Shown here: positions 8,402-31,761 of the stretch, piece after piece
Position numbering within the stretch: the first letter of the stretch is position 1
How the letters are laid out: the number at the start of each line of letters is the position of its first letter
NCBI GenBank assembly: GCA_025358765.1
Contig: JANYIG010000142.1
Location: 1 to 35,051, forward strand
DNA: 35,051 nucleotides
Source: Candidatus Kapaibacterium sp.
Lineage (GTDB): Bacteria; Bacteroidota; Ignavibacteria; Kapaibacteriales; UBA4661
Direction: 5' to 3'
Program-made: the position numbers and the translations under genes
Notes under the pieces: generated by a model
The model's input: only the letters and a program-made list of their open reading frames with translations
Database searches by the model: none
What the model was told of the DNA's origin: nothing

Positions 8402-9295
8402 TTATTCTTTTCGTAACGCCTGTATTTCCTGAACGCTCAGCCCTGTTTTAGCGCTGATGGTTGCATCATCTAAGACATCTAAAAGATTGCTGGCAATTTG
8501 CCGTGCTGCTTTTTTTTCACCCTCCTTCATTCCCTCCTTCATTCCCTCTTGCAGCCCCTGTTTCAGCCCTTTCGCCAATCCCATCTTTTCTGCTTTTGTA
8601 CGGGCGTTGTGTTGGTCATGCAAAAACATCTCCCGTCGTTGAATATCTTCCAAATCGTCTTTGCTCAGATTCACGCGGTTTGCGGTCGAGAAGGCTTTGT
8701 TTAGCTCGCTCACAGACTGCATGGAGTCTGGCACGGCATCAAGTGTTTTTGCATATTTCAAAAAATAAAGCCACTTGTCGGCAAGCGTTTGCAATTCCTC
8801 AAGGCTACGAGTGAATTTCGGCAGTTCGACGAACACCAATTCCACATCGTACATCGGGTAATCCATGAAGAGTTCTTTCTCCTTCAGAATGTACCGCGAA
8901 ATATGCTGTTCGTACGTGTCGAACATCACAAAATCCGTGATAGTAAGCGCGATAACGGGATTCAGAAGTGTATAGTTTTCGCCTTCCGGCAGTTGCGACG
9001 AATACGCTTTTGCCGCATTGTACAAAATCCGCTTTTCAAATCCTTCCACGTTAAGAACCTGCATCTCAATAATCACCGTCGTGCCATCCGCGAGTACTGC
9101 CCGCACGTCAACATACGTTTCCTTCATGCCGCGTATTTGCGGCGCAAGATACGGGTCGAGTATTTCCAACGACGAAATAATCGGCTGTTCGTTATAGACT
9201 ATCGCATTCAAAAAACTTTTGAGTACATCGGTGCTTTCCTTGGAGCCAAAAATTTTTTTGAACGCAAAATCTGTTTTTGGGTTGATGAATTGCAT
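8402..9295 (-). CDS. Rpn-family PD-(D/E)XK nuclease / putative transposase-like protein
   Basis: 297 aa. The N-terminus (INPKTDFAFKKIFG) and the core (YVDVRAVLADGTTVIIEMQV, near residues 81-100) are hallmarks of the Rpn/PDDEXK family; the Asp, Glu and Gln of that core match the nuclease active-site pattern. E. coli RpnA-type proteins are DNA endonucleases that raise RecA-independent recombination, and many are annotated as transposases without being part of an IS. The tail carries the usual low-complexity EGMK repeats followed by a helical TISAKTGLSVQEIQALRKE end. It sits 11 bp after lpxD and 43 bp before lpxC/fabZ, an intrusion into the lipid A operon. No flanking inverted repeats were seen. 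Confidence 0.85.
   Translation of the reverse strand: MQFINPKTDFAFKKIFGSKESTDVLKSFLNAIVYNEQPIISSLEILDPYLAPQIRGMKETYVDVRAVLADGTTVIIEMQVLNVEGFEKRILYNAAKAYSSQLPEGENYTLLNPVIALTITDFVMFDTYEQHISRYILKEKELFMDYPMYDVELVFVELPKFTRSLEELQTLADKWLYFLKYAKTLDAVPDSMQSVSELNKAFSTANRVNLSKDDLEDIQRREMFLHDQHNARTKAEKMGLAKGLKQGLQEGMKEGMKEGEKKAARQIASNLLDVLDDATISAKTGLSVQEIQALRKE
8520..8543. repeat. Two tandem 12-bp units coding EGMK repeats in the Rpn gene
   Basis: CCCTCCTTCATT occurs twice head to tail (8520-8531, 8532-8543) with a degenerate third unit after it. Each unit is four codons, so gain or loss of a unit would keep the frame and only change the length of the charged linker in the Rpn-family protein. Confidence 0.85.
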
Positions 9296-13268: not shown

Positions 13269-13676
13269 TCATGCTTGCTCGCTGCTGTTTTGCTCATTCA
13301 GATAAATGCGTATTTGGGTAACAAAGTCTGTGCTCATCTGACAGAGTCTTTCTGCTTCTTCCCGAGAAATAAGAAATTCGCTTTCATAATCACCAATCTG
13401 ACGCTTCCCAAATGCTCGTGCAAGATTTCTTCCCATTTCTACGGGAAAAATACCCGGAACAATGAAATGTTCTCCAAAAAGCCGATGAATGCCGGAATGT
13501 GTGCTTTGCGTCATCCCTTTCGTCAATAATGCTGCTTCTGCTGCAAAGAACATTGCGTAGTAAGAGCGCGAAACACTAGACTCATAGTCACCTGCATCAA
13601 GCAGTAATTCTGCGCTCTTGCAGTATTTATCTGCTCTTTCCAAGTAAGCGAAACTTTGACCATGGAGAGAACTCAC
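13269..13676 (-). CDS. HEPN-domain protein (UPF0332-like) of an MNT-HEPN pair
   Basis: 135 aa, all helical. SVSRSYYAMFFAAEAALLTKG (residues ~35-54) followed by STHSGIHRLFGEHFI is the UPF0332/HEPN pattern. HEPN RNases carry an R-x(4-6)-H motif; here Arg37 is present, but the expected His position is Phe43/Phe44, so the canonical site is incomplete. Other UPF0332 members also have an aromatic residue there, so this may be normal for the subfamily. The gene overlaps the upstream nucleotidyltransferase by 4 bases. In studied MNT-HEPN modules the HEPN protein is the toxin and MNT neutralises it by adding AMP; I infer the same here. Confidence 0.85.
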   Translation of the reverse strand: MSSLHGQSFAYLERADKYCKSAELLLDAGDYESSVSRSYYAMFFAAEAALLTKGMTQSTHSGIHRLFGEHFIVPGIFPVEMGRNLARAFGKRQIGDYESEFLISREEAERLCQMSTDFVTQIRIYLNEQNSSEQA

Positions 13677-14008
13677 AATACCAATCCTTCGCTACGAATG
13701 TTGATAAGAAGCGGGCTTAATTCATGGTAATAGCGCTCGACAGCCACAGGATAGACTGCAAGTAGTACGCCGTATTCCAAGTTAATACTGTAGGTCGCAT
13801 CCACCATCACATCAATCTCTTCCATTGGCTGCACTGCACCGCGCAGAACAACGGCGACATCTACATCTGAGTCCTCATGCGCCGTGCCGCGTGCGTAAGA
13901 ACCAAACAACACCACACGCTCCAAACGCTCGCCATACAGATTCCGCACGGTTCGCGTGAATGCCTTCAATGGTGCTTGAATGCTTGCTTGTGTGATCATG
14001 GTCTTCAT
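13673..14008 (-). CDS. MNT-family minimal nucleotidyltransferase (antitoxin of HEPN)
   Basis: 111 aa. The DNA polymerase beta-like signature is complete: GSYARG at residues 36-41, then SDVDVAVVL with Asp48 and Asp50 as metal ligands; a third acidic residue is likely Asp66 or Asp70. This is the minimal size for an MNT, with no accessory domain. In characterised MNT-HEPN systems it AMPylates the HEPN partner. The start lies 19 bp downstream of the truncated channel paralogue (14027-14215), and the stop overlaps the HEPN start in an ATGA junction. The initiator could also be the internal Met4. Confidence 0.9.
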   Translation of the reverse strand: MKTMITQASIQAPLKAFTRTVRNLYGERLERVVLFGSYARGTAHEDSDVDVAVVLRGAVQPMEEIDVMVDATYSINLEYGVLLAVYPVAVERYYHELSPLLINIRSEGLVL

Positions 14009-14289: not shown

Positions 14290-14499
14290 ATGAGTACCAT
14301 TCAACTGCGCGACGAAATCAGGCAATTGCCGCGTACCGAACAAATCTTGTTAGCAGAGTGGATTGTGAAACAATCTACAAAGCCACATCAAATCTCGCTC
14401 TCAGAAGCAGCAGAGCAAATGTTGCATGATTACCAGACCGACACAGAACTTACCGCATTTACGGCTCTTGACAGCGAGGATTTCCATGAAGCGCACTGA
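14290..14499 (+). CDS. Antitoxin of a MazEF-type pair
   Basis: 69 aa from the ATG at 14290, preferred over an in-frame upstream ATG at 14236 because family members start close to TIQLRDEIRQLP. The N-terminal helices (EQILLAEWIVKQS) probably dimerise. The acidic C-terminus (TDTELTAFTALDSEDFHEAH) is the usual toxin-binding tail in Bacteroidota/Chlorobiota antitoxins next to MazF-like toxins. The stop overlaps the toxin start by 14 bases, so the two are translationally coupled. Classification rests mostly on the partner gene and the tail motif. It is divergent from the channel remnant. Confidence 0.8.
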   Translation: MSTIQLRDEIRQLPRTEQILLAEWIVKQSTKPHQISLSEAAEQMLHDYQTDTELTAFTALDSEDFHEAH

Positions 14500-14833
14500 A
14501 ATCTGGTTTGTGAACCTCGACCCAACGCTTGGTGCGGAAATCCGAAAAACACGCCCTGCGCTTGTCGTCAGCGATGACGAGTTGGGGATTCTGCCTTTGC
14601 GTGTTGTTGTACCGATGACCGATTGGAAGCCGCATTACGCCAACACGCCTTGGCTTGTAGAACTTGTACCCGACACTGACAATAGGCTTTCTAAAGCGTC
14701 TGCCGCTGATTGTTTTCAAGTACGTTCTCTTTCTACGACCCGTTTTGTGCGAAAACTCGGCGAGGTGGATATAGACACGGTGAGCGCGTTAGAAATAGCT
14801 TTGGCAAGGGTTCTTGCCATTCCTATCAAATAA
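14486..14833 (+). CDS. mazF: MazF/PemK-family endoribonuclease toxin
   Basis: 115 aa from the ATG at 14486 that directly precedes KRTEIWFVNLDPTLGAEIRKTRPALVVS, the MazF/PemK N-terminal signature. Family members are SH3-like dimers that cut single-stranded RNA at short specific sites. The conserved Arg (RKTRP) and the Thr/Ser of the S3 strand are present, and the C-terminus (VSALEIALARVLAI) forms the final helix. An in-frame upstream start at 14426 would overlap most of the antitoxin and is rejected. The frame is intact, so an active toxin is likely. A short AT-rich gap without a clear terminator separates it from the convergent murF. Confidence 0.93.
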   Translation: MKRTEIWFVNLDPTLGAEIRKTRPALVVSDDELGILPLRVVVPMTDWKPHYANTPWLVELVPDTDNRLSKASAADCFQVRSLSTTRFVRKLGEVDIDTVSALEIALARVLAIPIK

Positions 14834-16463: not shown

Positions 16464-18134
16464 TCAGGACAAAAGTACGGATTTTCCAACACTTTCAGGG
16501 ACAGCAAATTCTGCCAGCGGTGATGGGTGTTCCGATAATTGCACAAGCGGCAAGCGGATAAAAAATGTGGTTCCGCGCCCGACGTGGCTTTGCACGTGGA
16601 TTGTACCCTCGTGCGCCTCTACAATCCATTTCACAATCGAAAGCCCAAGTCCGTGCCCACCCGCTTCCTTCGACCGCGCCTTATCCACACGGTAGAATCG
16701 GTCAAAAATGCGCGGCATGTCTTCTGCTGGAATTCCAACACCGGTATCGCTCACCGATACAAGCGCTCGTGCGTAGTTGTGGTTTTCGTCTGCTTCTTCT
16801 TGCTCAAGCGTGATGACCACGCGCCCACCGCTTGGCGTATATTTAATAGCATTGTCAATCACGTTCAGCAATGCCTGATGCAAGCGGACTTTGTCTCCTT
16901 GTAGAACAACGTTTTCCAACGAAGGAGGAATCGTGCGGTATTGCACCGTGATGTCGCGTTCTTCGGCAAGAATCATAGCGTCTTCGGTGATGTCATCCAG
17001 CATCCGGCTGATGTTCACGGGTTCGCAGAGGATAGTCACCTGCCCCGAATCAGCTTGTGAAAGCTCAAGTAGGTTTTGAACAACTTGCGACAAACGATTT
17101 ACTTCCTCCAGCGCACTCCCAATGATTTCCTGATATTCCTGCGGAGATTTTTGCGAACGCAGTGCGATTTCAAGTTCGCCCATCAAGATGGCAAGCGGTG
17201 TGCGGAGTTCGTGCGATGCGTCGCCCGTGAACTGACGTATTTGCTTGAATGAATCTTCTAGACGCGAAATCATCGCGTTTAATGTAAGCGCAAGGCGTGT
17301 AAGTTCGTCGTTGACGGGGCGCACGACGAGGCGTTGGCTCAGGTTGTGTGCCGTGATTTCATGTGCTGTGCGGGTGATGTCTTCCACCGGTTGCACAAAA
17401 TACCGTGCAAGCAGCCATCCACCGATGATTGCCGCCGCCAGCACGAATGGAATCGTCACCGTAAGCGTCGAGAATAGATCACCAAGTGTACTTTCTACCT
17501 CGTCCACCGGATAGCCGACGGAAATCTGCACGTTGCCCGCGTGATAGACCACAAGCCGCAATCGTTGTCGTCCTGTAGAGTTTTTTAATTCATAGCGTGG
17601 TGCAACGTAGTGGAACGGCAACGTATCACCTGCAACCATGGCAGCGGAAGGCAGAGGAAGTGTATTGCGCTGTAGGTTTTCAGAGCGCCAAACCACAACG
17701 CTGCTTGTATCGGCAACCTGAATAAAATAATTTTTGGGGTTTAGTAAAATGCGCTCATAGACCGCAGACCAAACGGCATCTGCCTTGTCAGGTGCTTGTG
17801 TGGTGTCTTTGGGCGGCAAGATGGGTCCAACAAATTTCCGGCGCGTTTGCTCACGCAAAAATGCTAAATAGTCATCACTATGAGCTTTGACGCGCTTTAG
17901 CGAACGTTCGGCGCGGTCAGCATCAAAAGGTTTTAATGGTTGTTGCGTTTCGCGCTGTTTGTCCTTGATGATGCTCCCTAACGAGAACGCTACTTGCAGC
18001 AACGAACCGTCCAGATTACTATTGAGTTCCTGGGAAACAGTCACAAAATTCACCACACCGAAGACAGCAAGCGGAATCGCCACAATCGCCGTGTAACCAA
18101 TCATGAGTTTGGAGCGGAACGAAAGCTGAAGCAT
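16464..18134 (-). CDS. Sensor histidine kinase (periplasmic sensor, HAMP, HisKA, HATPase)
   Basis: 556 aa from the ATG at 18134, which begins LQLSFRSKLMIGYTAIVAIPLAVFG, a basic n-region and the first TM helix; the upstream 54 codons of the frame are ignored. Two TM helices (~10-30 and ~220-245) bracket a ~190-residue periplasmic sensor. A HAMP domain follows, then the H-box DASHELRTPLAIL with the phospho-accepting His308, the N-box DNAIKYTP (~427), G1 box DTGVGIPAEDM and G2 box GGHGLGLSIVKWIV. All catalytic features are present, so it should autophosphorylate. No response regulator adjoins it; the divergent neighbour is the pseudokinase-AAA-Fis protein. The ligand is unknown. Confidence 0.94.
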   Translation of the reverse strand: MLQLSFRSKLMIGYTAIVAIPLAVFGVVNFVTVSQELNSNLDGSLLQVAFSLGSIIKDKQRETQQPLKPFDADRAERSLKRVKAHSDDYLAFLREQTRRKFVGPILPPKDTTQAPDKADAVWSAVYERILLNPKNYFIQVADTSSVVVWRSENLQRNTLPLPSAAMVAGDTLPFHYVAPRYELKNSTGRQRLRLVVYHAGNVQISVGYPVDEVESTLGDLFSTLTVTIPFVLAAAIIGGWLLARYFVQPVEDITRTAHEITAHNLSQRLVVRPVNDELTRLALTLNAMISRLEDSFKQIRQFTGDASHELRTPLAILMGELEIALRSQKSPQEYQEIIGSALEEVNRLSQVVQNLLELSQADSGQVTILCEPVNISRMLDDITEDAMILAEERDITVQYRTIPPSLENVVLQGDKVRLHQALLNVIDNAIKYTPSGGRVVITLEQEEADENHNYARALVSVSDTGVGIPAEDMPRIFDRFYRVDKARSKEAGGHGLGLSIVKWIVEAHEGTIHVQSHVGRGTTFFIRLPLVQLSEHPSPLAEFAVPESVGKSVLLS

Positions 18135-18208: not shown

Positions 18209-18216
18209 TATCTTTG
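18209..18216 (+). promoter_or_regulatory. Candidate Bacteroidota-type -7 box
   Basis: TATCTTTG fits the TAnnTTTG -7 element of Bacteroidota primary sigma factors. It lies about 80 bp upstream of the pseudokinase-AAA gene. I see no convincing -33 TTTG partner, so this is only a candidate. Confidence 0.35.
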
Positions 18217-18225
18217 AACAGACAA

Positions 18226-18253
18226 AATCTTGTACATTCAATCTTGTACATCC
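18226..18253 (+). promoter_or_regulatory. Tandem 14-bp direct repeat, candidate operator
   Basis: AATCTTGTACATTC is followed without a gap by AATCTTGTACATCC (13 of 14 bases equal). Each contains the palindrome TGTACA, and the spacing places both on nearly the same face of the helix. They sit just downstream of the candidate -7 box and end 41 bp before the start codon at 18295, a suitable place for repressor or autoregulator binding. Confidence 0.5.
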
Positions 18254-18294: not shown

Positions 18295-21200
18295 ATGATT
18301 GTTTTTTCTGATTCACGCTATTCCAACGTTCAAACGATTGACAAAAACGACGGCTCACAGCTTGTGCGCTGCTTCGATAAGGAGCGCACGCACGTGGTGC
18401 TGATGCGTGTGTTTTTTACGAGCGATGATGCTGAAAAATCGTTTCTCTTGACGGAAGCTGCCGCATTACGAAAACTTGCACATCCCGCGCTGGCAGCCGT
18501 CTATGACGTTGGCACAACCAGCGATGAATATCCGTTCGTGACCTTTGAAGACGTGGAGGGAACACCTCTTGCCGACGTGCCGCTTGCATCGCTGCGAATG
18601 ACGGGTGTTATCACGGCGGTGATTGTGGATGTATGCAGTGCGTTAGCCGCCGTTCATGGGTTGCGGCGGGTATTGCGGTGTCTATCGCCGCAGAGTATTC
18701 TTGTGGATGTGACGACGAATCGTACCCGTATTGCCCTTGCTCACTGGATGCCGAGCATTACGAGTGCCTCGCCCTTGGAACGTGGTCGCTATGACGCACC
18801 GGAACTCACGAGTAGTCGCCCTATTGATGCACGTGCGGATATGTATTCGTTCGGTGTGCTACTCTATGAAACCCTCACGGGCAAGGTGTTTGCTGATATT
18901 GCGGCAGTGGAGGCATCTGGAATGCTTTCGCATCTTGTGGTTCAAGCACTCACCGAAACCGCACCGCTTTTGCCGGATGCAGTCGGGCAGTGGCTTTGTG
19001 GTCTCGTAGAACATGAGCGTTCTATGCGTTTTTTTTCCATCCGCGAAGCGCTTGATTTCCTCGTCGCACGGCAGGTTGTCGTACCCGATGCCGTTGGAAC
19101 CGTTGCAGAAACACCCTGTATCTTATCGCCCGTGCATCCAGTTGGCGTAGATGCCGCTCTGGGGGCAATCGCAAATATCCGCATTGACACAGAAGAAGCG
19201 CCAGTATTAGAAATTTCTGGTGAACCGGGCTTGGGAAAAACGATGATTCTTCACTCACTCCAACACACGGCGAACGCCCGTGTGATTTACGTTGACGGCG
19301 CACAAGAAACTAATATCGGTGTTCAACTTCAGCAAGTGATTGTGCAAGAAGCGCAGGCAGCTCTTGAACGTAGGCACAAGCCAGAACACGGTGAATCCGA
19401 TAGTCTAATATTATTTGTGATTGACGACAGTGAATTTTTGAATGAGGCTCTGCGTGATGCTATTAAACGCTTACTCTTCTCTGAACGTGCCGCACGAAGC
19501 AGCATTCGGGTGATTGCCGCACATCGTTCGCAATTGGCAGTATTCGGCGGGAAAGCACAATCTCTCACGCTCTCGAACCTAATGCCACCACACCTGCCCT
19601 TGTTTTGTAGCGAGATGTTGGGGCGTTGCGCCTTCAGCCCCGAATTTTACAAAGAACTCTACAGCCTTACTAAAGGACACCCGCTCTTTCTTGAAGAGAC
19701 CTTGCGGTTCCTGATTCGCAACAACGTTCTTGTTCGTATGAACCGCGTCTGGGCAACAGATATTGAACGTTTTGATGACATACAGCCCTCATTACCACTG
19801 TCTCTCACGACACTGATTGTCACAAATATCCGTGCCATGAGCGAGGAAATGCAGCAAATGTTGATATTGCTTGTTGTGCTGGAAACGCCTTCGGTTCACG
19901 GAATCGCACTACATCTTATAGCGGAAATTTTGGACATCTCCACGCAAGCAGTCATGCGACTTCTGCTACCACTTATGTATGATGGCTACGTACGCCTTAA
20001 CCACTCTCACGCAACGCTTTCGCACGACCTCTACAAAGAAGCCTTGAACACAGGCATTGGCGAGGAAGCCCTCACACAAATGCGCGAAATGGTGCATCGT
20101 TACTGGGCTGCCATTAGCGAACAAACAGCAAATGGCAAGGAACATCTGCCTGCACTGAGCCAGCAAATCTCTGCGCTCGGCTCCTCCGAAACGCCACAGA
20201 ATGGCATGACAACTGCCCCGACAACACCCGAAACGCGGAGCGAAGTAGTTCCCGGTCCAGTGGTGATGCCCGCGATAAAAGAATCTGCACAACAACCGCA
20301 ACCAATTCCCGTCGTAGAAATTCCGGCAACAGCTGTTCCGTCGGTACGTTTTGACAATGATCGGAAATCGCAAACGCCGCTCCAAACGGGCATCCTGTCG
20401 GGAACATCTGGTGCAGTACAGCGATTGCGTCGTCAAATTGAACTTGCGGCGCAATACGAAGTGCCAGTCTTGCTTGAAGGCGGTTTTGGTTCAGCCAAAG
20501 AGGAGATTGCAAGTATCATTCACGGCATGAGTAACCGTGCAGCACAACCGTTTCATGCGGTAGTATGTTCAGACTTTTCGGAAGCGGAGCTTGACCAATA
20601 TCTATTTGGTAGCAATTCCCAACAAAACTCGCAACAGAACCCTCAAAAGAGTGTCATTGCTCAAACACAAGGCGGCATATTATTTATAGATGATATTGCG
20701 GCAGCAGCAATGCCTCTGCAAGCAAAACTCGCCCGTCTTACGCAGATAGCACAGATGCGGCTTCGCGGACAGAATCAACCGACCATGCCGTCAACACTTC
20801 ACAATACTCTGCACAATACGAATGCTCGTTTGATTATCGGCTGTGGGCGCGACGGTGACACATCTGCCGAACAAGCGCTGCAAGCGGGAACGTTCCATCC
20901 CGAACTATTTTTTGCGGTAAGCAGCTTGCGTGTGACGATTCCCTCGCTGAATGAACGCCGCGAAGACATCCCCGTACTCGTGGGATATTACCGTGAGATG
21001 GTGGCGGCAGAATTTGGTCGCAGTGATACATTGGGAGAATTACCCTCAACGATGCTTCAATCCTTGATGCAACAGCAGTGGACGGGGAATGTGATGGAAT
21101 TAGAAAGCCTTGTACGACGCTTGGTGCTTACGCAAGACCTCGTGCCAGAGGTGACAAACGATGAAAGGCAGCCCATACTAGCACCGCCAATTTCATCTAA

Positions 21201-21384
21201 TCTACCTTCGCGGCTTTTTGCTAACGAAGATGACCCCATTCTTTCTATTGACGACGCTCAGAAAGAACACATCCTTCGTGCGTTAGAAATGACGAGTGGC
21301 AACAAAACAAAAGCCGCCGAAATGCTCCGCATCAAGCGCACAACCTTGATTGCACGAATGAAGAAATTCGGAATGATGCCATAA
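18295..21384 (+). CDS. Pseudokinase - AAA ATPase - degenerate sigma54-activator-like AAA - Fis HTH regulator
   Basis: 1029 aa from the ATG at 18295; the frame extends further upstream, but MIVFSDSRY matches the start of the kinase-like fold. Residues ~5-260 follow a Ser/Thr kinase outline: the APE segment (YDAPEL) and DMYSFGVLLYETLTG are present. The active site is gone: the HRDLKPxN loop reads LRCLSPQS, the DFG motif reads AHW, and the ATP-binding Lys is not visible. Residues ~300-650 are an AAA/NTPase region with an intact Walker A GEPGLGKT (~309-316) and Walker B LILFVIDD. Residues ~695-955 copy the sigma54-activator AAA fold, but the P-loop is GGFGSAKE and the GAFTGA loop is absent. The end is a Fis-type HTH (GNKTKAAEMLRIKRTTLIARM). 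It is probably an ATP-regulated DNA-binding scaffold, not a classical activator. Confidence 0.85.
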   Translation: MIVFSDSRYSNVQTIDKNDGSQLVRCFDKERTHVVLMRVFFTSDDAEKSFLLTEAAALRKLAHPALAAVYDVGTTSDEYPFVTFEDVEGTPLADVPLASLRMTGVITAVIVDVCSALAAVHGLRRVLRCLSPQSILVDVTTNRTRIALAHWMPSITSASPLERGRYDAPELTSSRPIDARADMYSFGVLLYETLTGKVFADIAAVEASGMLSHLVVQALTETAPLLPDAVGQWLCGLVEHERSMRFFSIREALDFLVARQVVVPDAVGTVAETPCILSPVHPVGVDAALGAIANIRIDTEEAPVLEISGEPGLGKTMILHSLQHTANARVIYVDGAQETNIGVQLQQVIVQEAQAALERRHKPEHGESDSLILFVIDDSEFLNEALRDAIKRLLFSERAARSSIRVIAAHRSQLAVFGGKAQSLTLSNLMPPHLPLFCSEMLGRCAFSPEFYKELYSLTKGHPLFLEETLRFLIRNNVLVRMNRVWATDIERFDDIQPSLPLSLTTLIVTNIRAMSEEMQQMLILLVVLETPSVHGIALHLIAEILDISTQAVMRLLLPLMYDGYVRLNHSHATLSHDLYKEALNTGIGEEALTQMREMVHRYWAAISEQTANGKEHLPALSQQISALGSSETPQNGMTTAPTTPETRSEVVPGPVVMPAIKESAQQPQPIPVVEIPATAVPSVRFDNDRKSQTPLQTGILSGTSGAVQRLRRQIELAAQYEVPVLLEGGFGSAKEEIASIIHGMSNRAAQPFHAVVCSDFSEAELDQYLFGSNSQQNSQQNPQKSVIAQTQGGILFIDDIAAAAMPLQAKLARLTQIAQMRLRGQNQPTMPSTLHNTLHNTNARLIIGCGRDGDTSAEQALQAGTFHPELFFAVSSLRVTIPSLNERREDIPVLVGYYREMVAAEFGRSDTLGELPSTMLQSLMQQQWTGNVMELESLVRRLVLTQDLVPEVTNDERQPILAPPISSNLPSRLFANEDDPILSIDDAQKEHILRALEMTSGNKTKAAEMLRIKRTTLIARMKKFGMMP

Positions 21385-27003: not shown

Positions 27004-27486
27004 ATGAAGCCATTAGCGCTTGTTGTGGACGACAATAAGATTACAACCAAACTTCTCAACCGTTATTTGACCCCTGCAGGATACATTGTTAAAGAGGCAT
27101 ACGACGGCATTGAGTGCTTGGAAAAGGTGCAGGAAGAAATCCCTGATGCCATTGTTCTGGACGTAATGATGCCGCGTTTAGATGGCTACGAAACCGTAAA
27201 ACGCTTGAAGGCTGACCCAAGAACTGCTCGGATCCCGGTGGTGATCGTCACTGCTCTCAACGATGTGTCGAATCAAGTTAAGGCGATTGAGTCCGGAGCT
27301 GATGACTTTCTGAGCAAGCCTATTGAAGACAAGTTGTTGATTGCAAAGGTGAAGCTGCTCTCATCCCTTAGTGTGGAACAGAAGCGCGTGAGCCTAATGA
27401 CGGACTTGCTGAATAAAGCTCTGAGCGGTGAACTTACCAGAGAAGTTGCACAAGAAAAATTGAGCCAGCTTGACATCACATTGTAA
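27004..27486 (+). CDS. Single-domain response regulator (CheY-like receiver)
   Basis: 160 aa. The receiver residues are all present: Asp9/Asp10 (VVDDNK), the phosphoacceptor Asp53 (VLDVMMP), Thr83 (VIVTALND) and Lys105 (SKPIED). No output domain follows; the last ~40 residues (SVEQKRVSLMTDLLNKALSGELTREVAQEKLSQLDITL) are a short helical extension with no match I recognise. Receivers without output act by protein-protein contact. Candidate partners nearby are the SiaB/SiaC pair and the orphan histidine kinase, both unproven. A hairpin terminator ends the gene, so it is probably monocistronic. Confidence 0.93.
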   Translation: MKPLALVVDDNKITTKLLNRYLTPAGYIVKEAYDGIECLEKVQEEIPDAIVLDVMMPRLDGYETVKRLKADPRTARIPVVIVTALNDVSNQVKAIESGADDFLSKPIEDKLLIAKVKLLSSLSVEQKRVSLMTDLLNKALSGELTREVAQEKLSQLDITL

Positions 27487-30834: not shown

Positions 30835-31380
30835 ATGTCGCCGGAAACAATGTTACAAGAATATCGTCAGGCGCAAGATAAGTCTATCGTCATGGCATTC
30901 AAAGGTGCTTTGTCACAAACCATGCTCGTGGACTTAGGTAATATTCTACGGAATAAAGTAGGCTTTGATGGTAAAGCGAAAAAGATGTTTAGCGTTTTTA
31001 TCGAACTTACGCAAAACATTAAAAATTATTCTGCCGAAACAGAACTTGAATTGCCTGCTGGCAAACAAATCGGCGTGGGCATCGTCGTTGTAAGCGATGC
31101 AGCAGAACAATATACCGTCACTGCGGGAAACCTAATGCCAAGCGCAAATGTGGAGCGGGTACGCTCACGCTGTGAGTACATCAAAACTATGTCCTACGAG
31201 CAGCTTCGAGCATTCCATAAAGAAAAAATGCGGGAGGGACCGCCGCCGGACAGCAAAGGAGCGGGATTGGGGTTGATAGATATTGCAATGAAAGCCAACA
31301 CCCATGTAGATTTCGATTTTCAGTCGGTCAACAGCAACTATACTTTTTTCACAATTAACGCATGTATCAAGAAAGGGTAA
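30835..31380 (+). CDS. siaB: SiaB-family protein kinase (HATPase-like)
   Basis: 181 aa. It shows a reduced GHKL fold: the N-box-like ELTQNIKNYS (~62-71) and the G2-box-like KGAGLGLIDIAMKA (~140-153), with no dimerisation His domain, so it is a Ser/Thr kinase-type GHKL protein rather than a histidine kinase. In Pseudomonas aeruginosa, SiaB phosphorylates SiaC, and SiaA reverses this to control SiaD. The next gene, 6 bp downstream, is siaC. No siaA phosphatase or siaD diguanylate cyclase is in the window, so the output here is open. Confidence 0.9.
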   Translation: MSPETMLQEYRQAQDKSIVMAFKGALSQTMLVDLGNILRNKVGFDGKAKKMFSVFIELTQNIKNYSAETELELPAGKQIGVGIVVVSDAAEQYTVTAGNLMPSANVERVRSRCEYIKTMSYEQLRAFHKEKMREGPPPDSKGAGLGLIDIAMKANTHVDFDFQSVNSNYTFFTINACIKKG

Positions 31381-31386
31381 CCCGAT

Positions 31387-31761
31387 ATGAACACCGTCAC
31401 TATCGAACGAACCTCTGACACACCTGCTGTGACGATGGACGCAGAGCAAGGCATTCTGGAATTGAGCGGGAATTCCTACCCGGAAAATGCCATCGAATTT
31501 TATCAGGATGTATATGACTGGTTGCATGAATATTTTAGTGACAATAAATATTCATTGTCGGTGGTGTTTAAGCTCAATTATTTTAATACCAGTTCCGCAA
31601 AGTGTGTCTTGAATTTAATGACAATCTTGCAACATTATTATCTGCAAAACAAACTCATCAATGTTGCTTGGTATTACGACGATGACGATGAAGATATGCT
31701 CGAAACTGGCAAAGCATTTTCCGTTGATTTCAGTATGCCGTTCGACTTACGAGCATTCTAA
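31387..31761 (+). CDS. siaC: SiaC-family (DUF1987) phospho-switch protein
   Basis: 124 aa. ILELSGNSYPENAIEFYQDV and LNYFNTSSAKCVLNLM are the DUF1987 signatures. Thr68 in YFNTSS falls at the residue number of the SiaB phosphorylation site in the Pseudomonas protein. WYYDDDDEDMLETGKAF completes the fold. The unphosphorylated form stimulates SiaD in Pseudomonas; the partner here is not known. It starts 6 bp after siaB. The stand-alone receiver at 27004 is a nearby candidate for the same network. Confidence 0.92.
   Translation: MNTVTIERTSDTPAVTMDAEQGILELSGNSYPENAIEFYQDVYDWLHEYFSDNKYSLSVVFKLNYFNTSSAKCVLNLMTILQHYYLQNKLINVAWYYDDDDEDMLETGKAFSVDFSMPFDLRAF

Follow-up and report, generated by a model that had tools for sequence, protein, structure and literature searches.

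What does a single protein do when it combines the folds of a protein kinase and of a sigma54 activator and the catalytic motifs of both are lost? The question is raised by a gene at positions 18295–21384 of the window, by which we mean the whole stretch of 35,051 nucleotides analysed here (Candidatus Kapaibacterium sp., contig JANYIG010000142.1). The gene lies on the plus strand, as do all its parts described below, and encodes 1029 residues arranged as pseudokinase, STAND NTPase, linker, degenerate sigma54-type AAA domain and Fis-type HTH, an arrangement delineated from the ORF, Pfam matches and orthologs. The frame opens with an ATG at 18295, and its stop codon ends at 21384; an in-frame TTG at 18214 is another possible start, and the ATG is favoured because it matches the starts of the orthologs. 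Pfam families map to the protein in the order Pkinase, AAA_22/AAA_16, Sigma54_activat, AAA_lid_14 and HTH_8, so that the four parts named by the original prediction (kinase, AAA, sigma54-like AAA and HTH) were all recovered. Since a hydropathy scan, a crude test, found no clear transmembrane segment, the best reading is that this derivative of a kinase-STAND-bEBP fusion is soluble. We found no paper on the architecture kinase-STAND-dead sigma54 AAA-HTH in the open-access literature.

The front of the protein (residues 1–262, 18295–19080) is a pseudokinase domain, defined by Pfam, motif columns and dN/dS, in which the catalytic motifs are gone and structural residues of the C-lobe are retained. 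The kinase fold is indicated by a significant Pkinase match at residues 20–200 (50.8 bits, E = 2e-13, above the Pfam cut-off), and the closest solved structure by sequence is PknB (E = 8e-15). In an alignment of 12 pseudokinase rows and kinases of the same class, every pseudokinase row has Pro-Glu of the APE motif, Asp and Gly of subdomain IX and Arg of subdomain XI; in the window protein, the fold markers APE and DARADMYSFG (18796–18855), whose retention had been noted earlier, stand in the expected motif columns together with the subdomain XI Arg. The residues of an active PknB-type Ser/Thr kinase (beta3 Lys, HRD Asp, loop Asn and DFG Asp) read R, C, S and A here. The catalytic loop survives as the remnant RVLRCLSPQSI (18667–18699), with its Lys also replaced by Ser, and the DFG position as A-H-W. 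None of the 12 aligned orthologs has a Gly-rich loop, an HRD Asp (genera g1 and g2 have Cys there) or the Lys and Asn of the catalytic loop. The beta3 Lys is retained in L075 and replaced in the 11 others, by R, Q, G, V or S. No alternative set of ATP/Mg ligands is visible in the alignment of the 12 orthologs. Of the related kinase-STAND or fusion kinases aligned with them, 15 of 15 retain beta3 Lys, HRD Asp, loop Asn and DFG Asp. The original prediction held that the catalytic Asp, the loop Lys and the DFG motif were all lost. This is true of the window protein; for the DFG Asp, however, it does not extend to most orthologs: where the window protein has Ala, eight relatives have Asp and two have Glu, and the Asp or Glu of family f1 (the family of the window genome) stands in a D/E-x-W context. 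The motif pattern thus supports a predicted loss of kinase chemistry in the window protein.

The first AAA domain had been described as keeping Walker A and Walker B. It does, but what had been missed is that residues 280–600 (19132–20094) form a complete STAND-type NTPase with a winged-helix-like region. In addition to the AAA_22/AAA_16 match at about residues 297–396, the domain has Walker A (GEPGLGKT, residues 309–316, 19219–19242), Walker B (LFVIDD, residues 373–378) and GxP (residues 461–463). The STAND motif residues G309/G312/G314/K315, D377 and G461/P463 are invariant in 12 orthologs. The domain is followed by a variable linker (20095–20370) with relaxed dN/dS. In the orthologs from families f6 and f8 (such as L075/L076) its place, between the STAND and sigma54 domains, is occupied by a TPR region, which family f1 does not have.

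By profile, the back half of the protein has both parts of a bEBP, a sigma54-type AAA domain (Sigma54_activat, residues 702–878, 77.3 bits) and a Fis-type HTH (HTH_8, residues 985–1025, 43 bits). The closest solved structures by sequence are ZraR (top), NtrX/NtrC-type regulators, VpsR and FleQ; the VpsR structure 7v2b is among the top PDB profile matches. The AAA domain (residues 695–948, 20377–21138, with AAA_lid_14 at 887–948) is recognised by Pfam and is degenerate in the alignment. The lack of GAFTGA and the weak P-loop claimed for it were borne out, and the degradation goes further. The GAFTGA loop is replaced by NSQQNSQQNPQ, both Arg-finger positions are gone (FHPELFFAV versus FR.DLYYR), and so is the sensor II Arg (WTGNVMEL versus GNVREL). 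Among the orthologs, GAFTGA is deleted or replaced in 12 of 12, and none of them has a shifted copy; degradation also affects the Arg fingers and the sensor II Arg, of which L075/L076 have partial remnants. Ordinary activators sampled for comparison (17, of which 16 come from genomes of the window protein's family) all retain the sensor II Arg and either GAFTGA or a conservative variant (GAYTGA, GAFSGA, GAFTSA or GSFTGA). Since these defining features were examined and are absent, the window protein should not be classed among the sigma54 activators, and the alignment supports the view that sigma54-activator chemistry has probably been lost. The domain may still bind nucleotide, as the P-loop Lys (GGFGSAKEE) and the Walker B Asp (ILFIDD) persist; in L075 this second P-loop is intact. 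The HTH (residues 981–1029, 21235–21381), earlier judged to be good, is indeed the best conserved part of the protein, with 94–100% identity between paired relatives.

Orthologs are present in 9 of 9 other sampled genomes of the family (10 of 10 with the window genome), the one in G002 being split across two contigs and cut by the contig ends. Outside the family, three genomes of the same order, from two families, encode an ortholog: G048 (f6), G103 and G105 (f8). The other 110 genomes searched in the order yielded none at comparable scores, wider samples of the class and phylum yielded no further ortholog at strong E-values or near ortholog scores, and a collection of genome contigs searched for close relatives gave distant generic matches only. 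Phylogenetic analysis places the orthologs in one clade (support 100/99 for the C-terminal half and 99/99 for the N-terminal half), which shows their single origin; the trees include some long branches and do not fix the exact sister group. Five proteins from family f11 (same class, another order) share this domain order, have GAF in addition and keep all motifs intact (the Pfam architecture was run on one of the five). Because these fusions keep every catalytic motif, the double catalytic loss looks, most simply, derived.

Has the gene then been kept for a function? The losses are fixed across the clade, since HRD Asp, loop Lys, loop Asn, Gly-rich loop and GAFTGA are absent in all 12 aligned orthologs. 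By the Nei-Gojobori method, dN/dS between paired relatives is 0.01–0.10 for the pseudokinase, 0.02–0.14 for the STAND NTPase, 0.07–0.15 for the sigma54-type AAA domain and 0–0.06 for the HTH, compared with relaxed values of 0.13–0.82 for the linkers; all of these are approximate, as no ratio could be obtained for pairs with saturated dS, and dS exceeded 1 in several others. The pseudokinase and HTH are therefore under strong purifying selection, and the loss of catalysis did not entail a loss of function. Catalytic motifs lost in two domains might suggest that the gene is decaying and has no function, yet the retention in every family genome, a dN/dS far below 1 for each folded domain and the lack of internal stops make this highly improbable. 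Anatomy and conservation rest on solid evidence. The degradation of the sigma54-type domain does not follow loss of sigma54 either, because RpoN is found in all ten family genomes; intact sigma54 activators occur in the same genomes as the orthologs. As a separate observation, the match to the DNA-binding domain of RpoN falls into two pieces in g1/g2 genomes (G000:C275:6779-7348), separated by about 30 residues, but is continuous in g3 and in most other genomes of the order.

The surroundings of the gene are less conserved. A divergent histidine kinase gene (HAMP-HisKA-HATPase, 16464–18134, minus strand) does lie next to it, as originally described, but only in the window genome; as it neighbours no ortholog, the suggested link was dropped and the histidine kinase was ruled out as a partner. 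A stand-alone receiver domain is encoded at 27004–27486 (plus strand), about 9 kb from this orphan histidine kinase. Two copies of AATCTTGTACAT, at 18226 and 18240 (18226–18251, plus strand, 14 bp apart), lie upstream of the gene and are not conserved in relatives. These repeats had been proposed as a binding site; nearly all orthologs lack the TGTACA core in the region just upstream, which rules the repeats out as a conserved operator. The sequence TTTTGACA recurs upstream of seven of the eight g1/g2 sequences (in the window on the opposite strand), with exact matches in 6 of 11 compared rows, which are related, versus shuffled maxima of 1–4; as a candidate upstream motif it is no more than a lead, and no conserved dyad turned up upstream of the orthologs. 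As for a conserved operon, only lnt, directly downstream of the gene in f6/f8, was detected, and nothing is common throughout f1. A role in defence was rejected, since the PADLOC matches reflect generic kinase and bEBP similarities.

Taken together, we consider it reasonably probable that the protein is a soluble one-protein transcription regulator, derived from a kinase-STAND-bEBP fusion, in which both kinase and sigma54-remodelling activities have been given up. It is probably an ATP-driven switch and not an enzyme acting on other proteins. The original prediction of a non-catalytic DNA-binding scaffold fits the lost kinase and sigma54 chemistry and the good HTH, but with a complete STAND NTPase as the first AAA domain, an ATP switch is likelier than a passive scaffold. 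In such a switch, the pseudokinase would bind a protein or ligand signal. By analogy with STAND proteins such as MalT, this contact could free the NTPase for ADP/ATP exchange and oligomerisation. The dead AAA domain, without L1 loop, Arg fingers and sensor II Arg, would serve only as an assembly or spacer platform. The oligomer might then offer several Fis-type HTHs for tight binding to a conserved operator, leading to repression or recruitment at promoters of the housekeeping sigma factor without opening sigma54 promoters. STAND proteins pass from an ADP-bound to an ATP-bound state and form multimers, as in the MalT switch (PMC4381067). Reported precedents for bEBPs without GAFTGA acting at sigma70 promoters are Caulobacter and R. 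capsulatus NtrC and VpsR (PMC10274813), as well as TyrR, DhaR and HupR (PMC3162934). Several facts count against this explanation: the beta3 Lys and an intact second P-loop survive in L075, the second AAA domain of the window protein has its P-loop Lys and Walker B Asp, and the TPR region typical of STAND regulators, which bears on signal entry, is absent in f1.

The same domains may be put together in other ways. The pseudokinase might be a dedicated signal receptor of the linked STAND NTPase, whose oligomerisation would cluster Fis HTHs on DNA, with the sigma54 AAA motor turned into a structural part. We give this reading only a small chance; it resembles ZED1-ZAR1, which is a plant pseudokinase-NLR pair (PMC6634424), as opposed to a single bacterial chain. 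Equally doubtful is that the pseudokinase serves another, active Ser/Thr kinase as a scaffold or allosteric partner, docking the kinase or its substrates while the rest of the protein couples to DNA. Invariant APE, subdomain IX Asp and subdomain XI Arg beside a nucleotide pocket free to vary would suit such a role, and pseudokinases such as EssB/YukC do serve as scaffolds (PMC12599244), but no kinase gene is found among the conserved neighbours of the orthologs.

A slightly weaker candidate is antagonism of sigma54, in which the protein would occupy the enhancer sites of an active bEBP or form dead mixed hexamers and so damp sigma54-dependent transcription. Active bEBPs and RpoN in the same genomes are consistent with it, and so is the strong match that the dead AAA domain retains to the sigma54-domain profile (77 bits). 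However, the HTH recognition region, near-invariant in the clade (IKRTTLLARMKKFG), reads IGRATFYRMLEKYN in L025, the one same-family activator aligned beside it, and productive mixed rings are made less likely by the loss of the Arg fingers and other residues of the ring interface. It is very unlikely that the pseudokinase pocket carries out a different chemistry, such as the AMPylation or glutamylation known from SelO or SidJ: although the DFG-position Asp survives in most orthologs, the window protein is without it, and there is no conserved ligand set, as the beta3 position reads R, Q, G, K, V or S, the loop Asn S, G or V, and the Gly-rich loop is gone.

The nearest described relatives of the preferred switch are the CP1 pseudokinases, a family combining a kinase with a predicted COG3899 ATPase, often with FhlA/GAF or PAS; about 40% are pseudokinases, their function is unknown, and members are reported mainly from cyanobacteria and proteobacteria (PMC12599244). 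Like CP1 members, the window protein is cytosolic and joins a bacterial Ser/Thr-type (pseudo)kinase domain to a predicted ATPase; catalytic motifs may be degraded in CP1 too. The protein is a possible CP1 member: its ATPase, which matches Pfam AAA_16/AAA_22, may correspond to COG3899, and the lack of a transmembrane region in the crude hydropathy scan agrees with CP1. Unlike CP1, which has active and inactive members, its clade is uniformly without phosphotransfer residues, and the degenerate sigma54 AAA domain and Fis HTH are not described for CP1 (PMC12599244). The kinase-STAND-TPR-GAF-sigma54 AAA-HTH fusions L112 and L124-L127 (same class, another order) share the domain order and a similar HTH (GLKRTTLVEKMKKLGMM in the fusions), but have intact HGDLKPAN, DFG, GESGTGKE, GAFTGA, Arg fingers and sensor II, plus GAF. 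As in VpsR, TyrR, DhaR, HupR and the NtrC of Caulobacter and R. capsulatus, a sigma54-type AAA domain without a working GAFTGA loop is joined to an HTH; unlike in these, it is preceded by an N-terminal pseudokinase-STAND module, and the Arg fingers and sensor II Arg are lost too. MalT has another DNA-binding domain and a TPR-like sensor. Like MalT, the window protein carries an ATP-switch NTPase and a DNA-binding domain in one chain (PMC4381067); unlike in MalT, a pseudokinase precedes the NTPase, and family f1 is without TPR. Bacterial pseudokinases are said to be largely unexplored by experiment (PMC12599244). With two catalytic machines silenced and the STAND and DNA-binding end intact, this protein is a natural experiment on the roles left to pseudokinases and dead AAA domains once catalysis is lost, and intact relatives with the same domain order allow direct comparison.

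Another probable pseudokinase was seen in L120 (1438–4254, minus strand) and L119 (523–3621, minus strand), with HGN for HRD, Gly for the DFG Asp and WD-like repeats at the C-terminus. Elsewhere in the window, a PDDEXK_2 transposase-family gene (8402–9295, minus strand) lies between an LpxC-FabA-domain fusion and lpxD. A HEPN and nucleotidyltransferase pair and a PemK/MazF-like toxin gene, beside which no antitoxin was identified, occupy 13269–14008 (minus strand) and 14426–14833 (plus strand). A DUF6272 protein followed by a SiaC-family phosphoprotein (30835–31761, plus strand) resembles part of a SiaABCD-type module. A pointer to the Bacteroidota is that the window genome as a whole has 140 matches to the Por secretion tail TIGR04183.
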